DNA from: Paenibacillus sp. CC-CFT747
GTDB taxonomy: Bacteria > Bacillota > Bacilli > Paenibacillales > NBRC-103111
DNA: 64,000 nt
Assembly (NCBI GenBank): GCA_030323305.1
Contig: CP106741.1
Coordinates: 625,001-689,000, forward strand
Direction of reading: 5' to 3'
Shown: positions 13,219 through 22,049 of the stretch, piece after piece
How positions within the stretch are numbered: the first letter of the stretch is position 1
Layout: the number at the start of each line of letters is the position of its first letter
Made by a program: the position numbers and the translations under genes
Notes under the pieces: generated by a model
Database searches by the model: none
Seen by the model: the letters and a program-made list of their open reading frames with translations, nothing else
What the model was told of the DNA's origin: nothing

Positions 13219-13460
13219 CCCCAAAAAGTGAAGCGGATGCTCCGAGGGTTAGTCCTAATACTTTTTGGGGACCCCGGAAAACCAGGAAACTAACACATCG
13301 CCCAAAAAAGTGAAGCCGACGCTTCGAAGGTTGGTCCTAATACTTTTTGGGGGCCCCGGAAAAAACCATAAACAAACACATCGCCCCAAAAAAGTGAAGC
13401 CGACGCTTCGAAGGTTAGTCCGATTACTTTTCGGGGACCCCGGAAAACCAGGAATACCTC
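13219..13460. repeat. three tandem copies of an 82-83-bp palindromic intergenic repeat
   Basis: Units begin at about 13219, 13301 and 13384. Each has outer arms CCCCAAAAAGT and ACTTTTTGGGG enclosing a small hairpin (GAAGC-cgac-GCTTC) and a second short palindrome (GGTTAGTCCTAAT). It is followed by GACCCCGGAAAA and a spacer ending ACACATCG. A degenerate fourth start lies near 13461. Compensatory changes keep the arms paired. The predicted fold is a three-way junction. The unit length is not a multiple of three, so the small open frame across it is probably incidental. Confidence 0.85.
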
Positions 13461-18895: not shown

Positions 18896-20074
18896 TTAAG
18901 AATAGTGCTGCAAAAGGTTCACCGTGTTCACGATTTTCCCTTCGGACACATAGACCCGCGGCACCCGGTGCGAAATCATGCACGTGATCTCGTAGTTGAT
19001 GGTCCCGAGCTCGTCGGCAAGCTCTTCAACCGGAATCGCATAGTCCCCCTGGACTCCGAACAGCACGACCTCATCGCCCATGCGTACCCCGGGCACTTCC
19101 GAGACGCGGATCATGCACTGGTCCATGCAGATGTTGCCCACGACCGGCACCCTCTTCCCCCGAACGAGCGCATGGGCCTTGCGGGTCAGCATACGCGAGA
19201 AGCCGTCGGCATACCCGACCGGAAGGGTCGCGATCAGCTCGCCGTCCCTCTCCGTATGGTAGGTGGAGCCGTAGCTGATCCCGGCTCCGGCCGGCATGCT
19301 TTTGAGCATGACGATCCCCGTCTTCAGACTCATGACCGGCTGCAGCTCGATTCGGCTGCGGTCAACCTCGGCGGAGGGATAAAGGCCGTACATGCTGACG
19401 CCGAGACGCACCATCGAACAGGTCAGCTCAGGCGTGTCGATGGCCGCTGCGCTGTTGCCGGCATGCAGATGCCGGAAGCCCACTTCCTTCGCGGCAAAGT
19501 GATCCACCACCTGCTTAAACCGGGCGTACTGCTCCCGGGTGTAGGTTTTGTCGGCCTCATCCGCACTGGCATAATGGGTAAAAAGCCCCTCCACCTCCAC
19601 GCCCGGAAGAGCGAGCGCCTTCTCAATAAAGGTGACGGCTTCGTGATGGTCCGTCAAACCGACCCGGCCCATGCCGGTGTCAAGCTTGATGTGGATTTTG
19701 CCCCGGCGCCGGCCTTCTTGTCCCCAGGCGTTTACCGCCTCGAGGACTTCTTCGTCATACACGTTAAGGGTAATGTCATGAGGAAGCGCAAGGGCGACTC
19801 CCTGAACCGGGGTATAGCCGAGCACCAGAATAGGGGCGTCAATGCCCGCCCTTCTCAGCTCCAGCGCCTCGTCGAGAAAGGCCACCGCCAGGTAGCTCAC
19901 CCCGCACGCCAGCGCTTCCTTGGCCACCTGGACGGCGCCATGCCCGTAAGCATCGGCCTTGACCACGGCCATCATTTCAATTTCATCGGGTAGCTTCCGC
20001 CGAAAGGCATAGAGGTTATGGCGCAGCGCGTCCAAGGAAACCTCCACCCAGGTCGGACGGTAAAAGGAATCCAC
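18896..20074 (-). CDS. alr: alanine racemase
   Basis: A PLP enzyme making D-alanine for peptidoglycan. It is intact, with about 392 residues. The PLP lysine lies in MAVVKADAYGHG, the catalytic Tyr in GAGISYGSTYHT, and the C-terminal block is VVGNICMDQCM. The GTG start at 20074 fits the AGAAGGTGG site better than the ATG at 20080, which lies directly against it. It follows ydcC and precedes ndoAI/ndoA, as in B. subtilis. Confidence 0.95.
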   Translation of the reverse strand: MDSFYRPTWVEVSLDALRHNLYAFRRKLPDEIEMMAVVKADAYGHGAVQVAKEALACGVSYLAVAFLDEALELRRAGIDAPILVLGYTPVQGVALALPHDITLNVYDEEVLEAVNAWGQEGRRRGKIHIKLDTGMGRVGLTDHHEAVTFIEKALALPGVEVEGLFTHYASADEADKTYTREQYARFKQVVDHFAAKEVGFRHLHAGNSAAAIDTPELTCSMVRLGVSMYGLYPSAEVDRSRIELQPVMSLKTGIVMLKSMPAGAGISYGSTYHTERDGELIATLPVGYADGFSRMLTRKAHALVRGKRVPVVGNICMDQCMIRVSEVPGVRMGDEVVLFGVQGDYAIPVEELADELGTINYEITCMISHRVPRVYVSEGKIVNTVNLLQHYS

Positions 20075-20100
20075 GTCCATCCACCTTCTTCTGCAAGTAG

Positions 20101-20214: not shown

Positions 20215-20237
20215 AAGGACCCGTCGGAACGGTCCTT
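20215..20237 (-). terminator. hairpin overlapping the ydcC stop codon
   Basis: AAGGACC and GGTCCTT flank a nine-base loop at the 3' end of the gene. The T tract is short, so partial read-through into alr is likely. Confidence 0.45.
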
Positions 20238-21560
20238 TATTTCATGGAATCGCCTTGGACCGCCTGGGCAATGTTCACCATCTCGTCAAACGGCAGGTCT
20301 CCCGAGGACAAGCGGTACTCCATGCCGTCATACGTCCACGTCAGCGTCTTCTGCTGGTCGCCGGTCAGGAGACCGAGGGTGTAGCCGAGGCTGACCATTT
20401 TGCCGGGGAGGGCCGCTACCGCTTTGTCCGCAGGCTGGGACTCGACCAGCGTGTAGTTGTAGGTGCCGCCATAGCGGAGCATGACGGCCGGGTTGCCGCC
20501 GAGCGTGATGTCGCTCGAGCCCTTCAGGGCGACGCCCTTCGGCAGGTACCACGGATCCACGGCCGTAACCGTCTTGGCTGCAGCGGATGGAGCTGCCGCT
20601 CCGGCTGCTTTGCCGTCGGTTCCGGTGGCTTTCGCATCGGTACCTGTTGCCTTGCCATCCGTGCCAGTAGCTTTAGCGTCGGTGCCTGCAGCTTTGCTGT
20701 CCGTGCCGGTGGACTTAGCGTCCGTGCCAGTGGCTTTAGCATCGGTACCCGAAGCCTTAGCGTCCGTGCCAGTAGCCTTAGCATCTGTGCCCGTTGCTTT
20801 GCTGTCCGTGCCGGCAGCTTTCGCATCTGTGCCGCTGGCTTTCGCGTCCGTACCCGTAGCTTTGGCGTCGGTGCCCGCTGCCTTGCCATCCGTCCCCGCC
20901 ACAGTCGGCATGGACGACAGCGATCCGGTCAGGTTCCGCTGAGTGTCGAACGAATCCTTATCGAACGACGCATCGAATTTAAAGGTGTCAAAATCCACCG
21001 TCACCATAATGTTCGTGTTGGCATCGAGCACCTCTACGTGGCGGGGGTATAGCTTTTGCTGTCCAGCCAAATCTTCTGGCGAACCAGCGTCGGATTGCCA
21101 TAGTTGGCCAGCACATCGAACACGACATCTTTGCCGTCCGTGGTCATTTTGCGATCCTTGTCGGCTACAATGCTTTGAACAAGGGAGTGGTACAGGTAAA
21201 CCTGCCCCTGGTTGTTCGGCCAGTCGCTCTGGAAGCGGAAGCTTTTGTTCAGGTGGGGAGTCAGAACGAAAACCCCTCATCGTTGCGGAGCACGATCTGC
21301 TCAATGTCCTTCTTCTCGTTCGTGAGCGAAATCCGGTAGTAATGAGGATTCTTATACGATACGTCCACCGCGTATTCCTGGGGCTGCTGTCCCGTATACA
21401 GCACCATTTTGCCCGACCCCTGATAGCTTTCCAGCTTGCTGACCTTCTGGTCAAGGTCCTTTGACAGCGAGCCCGCATCCTTCTTCCCGCAGCCCGCCAG
21501 CGCCAGGGCCAGCACAAGCATCAGGGATGTCATCATCCATGTGATCCGACGCATTCCCAT
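20237..21560 (-). CDS. ydcC: YdcC-like LolA-fold sporulation lipoprotein with a heptapeptide repeat insertion (two frameshifts)
   Basis: It begins with a lipoprotein signal (lipobox LALAGCG at about residue 23). A LolA-like domain follows: LESYQGSGKMVLYTG, EYAVDVSYKNPHYYRISLTN, VLANYGNPTLVRQKIWLD, HVEVLDANTNIMVTVDFDTFKF. A Thr/Asp/Lys-rich repeat (14 x GTDxKAx) then interrupts the fold, and the domain resumes at DPWYLPKGVAL. The frame changes sit at a T run (21265) and a C run (21055). B. subtilis YdcC lies at the same place before alr and is needed for efficient sporulation. I do not know a YdcC homologue with such an insert. Confidence 0.85.
20603..20896 (-). repeat. 14 x 21-bp coding tandem repeat (GTDxKAx)14 within the ydcC homologue
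   Basis: Fourteen contiguous 21-bp units encode GTDAKAT-like heptapeptides. The fourth position is A, G or S and the last one is A, T or S. Unit boundaries are exact: the first G codon is at 20896 and the last codon ends at 20603. Third-base variation between units shows the array is not a recent homogeneous expansion. Confidence 0.95.
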
Positions 21561-22049
21561 CCATCCTCTCTTTTCGCTTAGGCTTATCCAACTGATAACA
21601 TGTCTATGAGGGAACTTGGACGATTATGCAGACTAGCCCCGGCTTGGCCGGAAAACGCGGATAGGCCTTTTTCTTCCCGCCTGGAAAGGCAGACTCATTA
21701 GTAGATCACCAAAACTAAGTTGCCAAAGCCGAATAAGCCATCTCCTTTCATTCAAGTCACAAAAGGAGTTCATGACAAAAAGCCCCGATCCCTCGAGGCG
21801 GGGTTCGGGACTAGGAAGAAGGAGGGTCCTAGAGACTAGGGAACCTATTTAAGTATTATCCTTAATCCGCCAGCCTTAGAGCATAGCCCTTCAAACCTCC
21901 AGCCTCAAGGGGTACTCGGAGGGCTGTCCTCTTTTATCAGCACGCTGCGAGTGAGCAGGGCAATCCGAAGAGGCCCTTCCTTTATAAGAACGAGATTATC
22001 AGTCCAGAAAAGGCCTTTCCCGCTTATTCATTAATTCTAGAGGGCCTAT
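21561..22049. other. 490-bp gap upstream of the ydcC homologue
   Basis: It holds a terminator at 21780-21805 for the small gene on its right, and imperfect GGACTAGGA/TCCTAG inverted motifs near 21810-21840. I see no open frame with family support or clear codon bias. Confidence 0.5.
21780..21805 (-). terminator. intrinsic terminator downstream of the small membrane protein gene
   Basis: AAGCCCCG pairs with CGGGGTT around an 11-base loop. On the minus strand it is followed by TTTTTG. Confidence 0.65.

Follow-up and report, generated by a model that had tools for sequence, protein, structure and literature searches.

The heptapeptide array encoded in the window (a stretch of 64,000 nucleotides from contig CP106741.1 of Paenibacillus sp. 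CC-CFT747, to which all positions refer) is probably a fast-evolving disordered tether between two folded domains of SsdC, a sigma-E-driven mother-cell lipoprotein of RseB architecture. The gene bearing the array is ssdC (formerly ydcC), encoding a spore-shaping membrane lipoprotein. The original prediction of a YdcC-type lipoprotein was therefore right, and the gene has both the lipobox cysteine and the neighbour alr. In B. subtilis, where ydcC was renamed ssdC, the protein is a mother-cell protein controlled by sigma-E, is anchored in the membrane and accessible to trypsin, forms a ring-like structure or clusters, and is required for normal cortex, shape and germination (PMC7769602). The window protein resembles B. 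subtilis SsdC (Luhur et al. 2020, PMC7769602) in its position beside alr, its sigma-E-like promoter, its lipobox or membrane anchor and its RseB-like architecture, and the two genes are orthologous by position beside alr. B. subtilis SsdC differs in being 338 aa long and having no repeat array; judging from its length, its linker would be about 20 aa, and the paper describing it does not mention a linker. In this way, an odd repeat becomes a defined part of a spore-shape protein.

The gene, its promoter and alr all lie on the minus strand. The signal peptide with the lipobox cysteine (codon at about 21489-21491) and the LolA/GerS-like N-terminal domain are encoded at 20927-21560, a segment with two 1-bp deletions relative to the same-species genome. 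The lipobox of the window protein reads LALAGC, and its cysteine is invariant in 29 relatives. The C-terminal domain (DUF4367; RseB C-domain fold) and the stop codon occupy 20237-20563, as seen from a domain match and a structure model. The layout of a LolA-like domain followed by DUF4367 was confirmed; the LolA_like match is under the Pfam cut-off, and the fold nonetheless matches. A literature search for DUF4367 together with LolA found no paper. The alanine racemase gene alr, the expected downstream neighbour of ydcC/ssdC, is located at 18896-20080 (TIGR00492, E 2e-116), and MazE/MazF-like genes also adjoin ssdC. A candidate sigma-E promoter, GCATAAT-N14-CATAGACA, was recognized by consensus match at 21601-21629, 40-69 bases upstream of the first ATG, and most of the relatives listed have it in the same place, with little change in distance. 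By consensus match only, 57% of upstream regions scored at least 12 for the sigma-E-like motif, versus 7% of shuffled ones.

The ssdC frame of the window is interrupted twice, by apparent 1-bp deletions beside a C run at 21272-21273 and beside a G run at 21046-21047 (minus strand). The second genome of the same species, G063, is open at both places and has an intact ssdC frame of 476 codons; its completeness is 99%, versus 90.65% for the window genome. Because the breaks are single-base deletions at homopolymers, neighbouring genes are similarly hit and the same-species frame is intact, both frameshifts appear to be assembly errors. One such neighbour is galU, which is split into two matching halves. 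Compared with the same-species genome, the window carries about 15 deletions and 6 insertions of one base each between 13941 and 24350, many of them next to homopolymers. These indels break ssdC and galU, and probably also tex and the gene of a PfkB kinase; their pattern resembles that of an unpolished long-read assembly. With so many single-base indels in the assembly, two of them in ssdC, the array itself might be suspected to be a collapse or expansion. This is barely credible: the array is also present in the independent G063 genome, where units 1-8 are the same or almost the same, and the units differ by substitutions, not by indels. An artefact is thus largely refuted, though the count of 14 units is provisional.

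Structure models revealed where the array sits. In the AF2 model of P. flagellatus SsdC, which was built from 6 sequences, the LolA-like strands lie before residue 194, a separate strand-helix domain lies after residue 274, and the linker has pLDDT below 50. In the AF2 model of the window protein, the C-domain is mostly at about 70-94, and the array has pLDDT of 33-40 and no regular secondary structure; this agrees with the disordered spacer proposed originally, although with 6-7 sequences behind the models low pLDDT is not proof of disorder. The modelled C-domain superposes on RseB residues 220-316 with Z 12.5 (2.1 A over 91 residues), and the best Foldseek matches of the full-length model are RseB and MucB. 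The RseB/MucB domain order, a LolA-like N-domain and then the RseB C-domain fold, is present in SsdC. RseB/MucB and SsdC share this LolA-like N-domain and small C-domain, with fold matches over both. They differ in that RseB works in the periplasm as a soluble regulator of RseA, and RseB/MucB proteins bind an anti-sigma factor and lipid/LPS signals, whereas the window protein is a lipoprotein of a spore former, with a linker of more than 100 residues. The array had been thought to split the LolA-like fold. The models contradict this, because all LolA-like strands lie ahead of the linker, on the N-terminal side of the array, with another domain beyond it. The array is thus predicted to fill the position of the RseB interdomain linker, between a complete LolA/GerS-like domain and the C-domain. 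This shows at which point SsdC could be cut, shortened or exchanged with both folded domains left intact.

The array, (GTDxKAx)14, forms the body of the interdomain linker and is encoded at 20603-20896 (minus strand). Both these coordinates and the number of heptads had been given exactly. The whole linker consists of GSLSSMPTVA, the array and GAAAPSAAAKTVTA and extends over 20564-20926 (minus strand), with approximate boundaries taken from domain HMMs. Read from 20896 down to 20603, there are 14 consecutive in-frame heptads, G-T-D-[AGS]-K-[AS]-[TAS], opening with GTDGKAA GTDAKAT and closing with GTDGKAA. G, T, D and K never vary, either among the 14 units of the window or among the 16 of the same-species genome, and the 7-residue periodicity, measured on the 16-unit array, reached z = 29 against shuffled linkers. 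Two weak Pfam matches fall on the array, YadA_head (E 0.067) and LbR_Ice_bind (E 0.12). They would suit an ordered stalk in which the heptads stack as a left-handed beta roll, like YadA heads or the grass ice-binding protein, and so form a rigid spacer. We consider such a stalk very unlikely, as both matches are below the Pfam cut-offs, AF2 puts no strand in the array, and only Ala would occupy the inward positions. PHROG tail-fibre and NCBIfam adhesin matches on the array were taken as low-complexity matches.

At the DNA level, the repeat is far less regular. The units had been described as fourteen exact 21-bp repeats; their length is exact, but their sequence is not, with a mean unit-to-unit identity of 15.0/21 and a maximum of 19, and Tandem Repeats Finder reported period 21 with 68% matches. 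Between-unit identity at the three codon positions is 0.865, 0.909 and 0.369. Synonymous codons are shared between units at 0.400 in the window, versus 0.389 +/- 0.014 for random choice, and at 0.426 in the same-species genome, versus 0.424 +/- 0.011. Near-identical DNA units, as expected of a recent VNTR, are therefore lacking; in neither array did this comparison find a pair of units resembling a recent copy, and no two units are more alike than random synonymous codon choice gives, which speaks against recent slippage. At the same time, pN/pS among units is 0.13 in the window and 0.09 in the same-species genome. Because the units share codons no more than by chance yet keep their amino acids, the array appears, from these sequence comparisons, to be old and constrained at the amino-acid level and not a fresh product of slippage. 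A perfect-looking protein repeat over fully scrambled DNA points to constraint on amino acids rather than slippage. An exact-repeat pattern search of the window's own genome gave no match, consistent with diverged DNA units. Avoidance of shared codons between adjacent units, as selection against recombination would give, was not significant (0.33 vs 0.40, P 0.12). In the window array, 42% of Ala codons are GCT, versus 6% in the compared genes. Across the family, codons of ssdC linkers end in A/T more often than those of their own domains (GC3 0.515 vs 0.634; lower in 85/99).

Comparison of the two genomes of this species, the window genome and G063, revealed that the copy number varies, as had been suggested: the window has 14 units and G063 has 16. 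Units 1-8 of both match in register at 20-21 of 21 bases. Beyond unit 8, window units 9 and 11 are close to G063 units 10 and 11 (20/21), and the remaining units are unmatched. At synonymous sites, the strains diverge by 0.07 within units 1-8 and by 0.06-0.11 in the sequence flanking the array. The simplest reading is that the two lineages have lost or exchanged units of an old, constrained array, and recombination with another array may be the source of the unit differences.

We also surveyed the linker in 180 distinct SsdC proteins, with boundaries set by domain HMMs, and an interdomain linker was present in all of them. The 102 linkers from the window's family range from 20 to 249 aa with a median of 95. 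Those from the remaining families of the order range from 12 to 125 aa (median 38, n=26), and those from other orders from 11 to 69 aa (median 19, n=52), where 50/52 fall within 11-26. A family-wide shift toward longer linkers is supported by these lengths. The C-domain has a constant length of about 109 aa across the surveyed proteins; in relatives, the N-terminal part is 209-213 aa, the C-terminal part is 107-111 aa, and all length variation lies in between. When proteins with domains at least 98% identical were paired, linker identity had a median of 84%, and lengths differed in 43/60 pairs, in one by 48 residues. Fixed length or sequence in all relatives, which would have contradicted the predicted variability, did not occur; both vary. 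The tether site is constant across nearly all relatives, but its length and sequence turn over rapidly.

The composition of the linkers is more uniform. They are rich in Ala, Gly, Thr, Ser, Lys and Asp and nearly without Arg (0.1%), Tyr, Phe and Ile. Strong periodicity was found in 7/91 linkers of at least 60 aa, with a repeat unit of 7 to 30 residues that differs from one linker to the next, and arrays of other species retain more codon similarity between units (0.45-0.85). Single G[TS]DxK motifs occur in 11/101 other linkers, above shuffles, although many of the 11 are close relatives. In genomes G043 and G050, dozens of large open frames (600-1300 aa) have low-complexity stretches resembling the array.

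Two further explanations of the array need to be weighed. The GTDxKAx heptad might be a sequence-specific binding or assembly module, for peptidoglycan, the coat or another SsdC in a ring, with copy number tuning avidity. The invariance of G, T, D and K in every unit of both arrays despite randomised synonymous codons would fit such a module, as would the ring-like clusters of SsdC in B. subtilis (PMC7769602). Strict invariance of these residues exceeds the needs of a generic spacer and counts against the tether. A dedicated module is nevertheless improbable, for the array is confined to ssdC of this species among 104 family genomes, and at the same site relatives carry either linkers that are unrelated or repeats of 13-30 residues with a different sequence. 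The opposite explanation is that length and sequence of the family's linkers are effectively neutral and that the array is a by-product of replication slippage and recombination at a permissive site. Fast linker turnover agrees with this drift, and the SpoIIIAH low-complexity linker is likewise longer in the family. We judge drift to be about as improbable: pN/pS of about 0.1 together with random codon sharing is unexpected for recent neutral slippage, and linker composition is constrained family-wide.

If the array is a tether, the lipid-anchored LolA/GerS-like domain would stay at the membrane with the RseB-C-like (DUF4367) domain hanging on the tether, which might bring within its range a partner lying some nanometres away from the membrane-proximal domain. 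By rough polymer scaling, 120-135 residues would have a mean reach of ~10 nm, and 20 residues ~3 nm. Selection would keep a flexible, soluble, charge-balanced composition free of Arg and aromatic residues. Length would be weakly constrained, so that units could be lost or exchanged, and in this species the composition may have become a regular heptad. The tether may serve as a spacer across the wall or intermembrane space. LpoB/LpoP-type outer-membrane lipoproteins activate peptidoglycan synthases across a gap via a disordered tether. They offer a possible works-like analogy only, in having a lipid anchor, a disordered tether and a folded effector domain; their folds are unrelated to SsdC, and the SsdC tether lies between two folded domains.

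In the window's family, a low-complexity linker also lengthens SpoIIIAH, another membrane protein of the mother cell, exposed to the same gap (median matched span 246 vs 181 aa). Across species, the length of the SsdC linker and that of SpoIIIAH were correlated (Spearman 0.47, and 0.60 when genus means were used), but the correlation was gone with independent contrasts (r 0.13, p 0.35). Length matching of the two proteins to a shared gap was therefore rejected, because the correlation vanishes after phylogenetic correction. The low-complexity linker of SpoIIIAH is itself repetitive (SPQPTEGGKASPQPTDSGKASPKPTDSGK) and is the same in the window genome and the same-species genome, though their ssdC arrays differ. 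DUF1510, considered as a vegetative control for linker growth, is absent from the window's family and was uninformative.

The N-domain of SsdC appears to be a distant full-length relative of GerS of C. difficile, judging from profile and structure matches. In every one of the 30 intact relatives, the NCBIfam GerS model (NF041286) gave a single full-length match, which coincides with ssdC wherever coordinates can be compared; model positions 3-194 are aligned, with E 1e-8 to 2e-16. All 29 of the 29 aligned SsdC proteins match. It also matches the SsdC N-terminal fragment in the window genome and the B. subtilis control, and one relative has an additional partial match of 51 residues. GerS (PDB 7RAG) aligns with SsdC end to end at E 0.026, with structural Z 9.7 over 120 residues; LolA and LolB have the same fold. 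SsdC was rejected as a GerS equivalog, because its scores, at most 61.8 bits, are far below the curated cut-off of 175 bits. GerS, an activator of the CwlD amidase (PMC8496864), is like SsdC a sigma-E-controlled lipoprotein affecting cortex and germination. Unlike SsdC, GerS stops after the N-domain and has neither a linker nor a DUF4367 domain. The GerS papers describe GerS as Peptostreptococcaceae-specific; the SsdC paper (PMC7769602) is silent on GerS, as is the GerS structure paper on YdcC. A doubtful but conceivable extension is that SsdC is the Bacillales counterpart of GerS. Its N-domain would then engage CwlD or some other enzyme of the cortex, and the disordered tether, tuned by lineage and here made of a conserved heptad array, would set the reach of the RseB-C domain and so link enzymes of the cortex with assembly of the coat or envelope. 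If the GerS link is true, the way in which SsdC acts on the cortex, a matter left open by published work, could be tested directly.

Elsewhere in the window, an intergenic tandem repeat at 13219-13454 comprises 2.9 copies with a period of about 84, and every copy contains a self-complementary motif, CCCCAAAAAG...CTTTTTGGGG.
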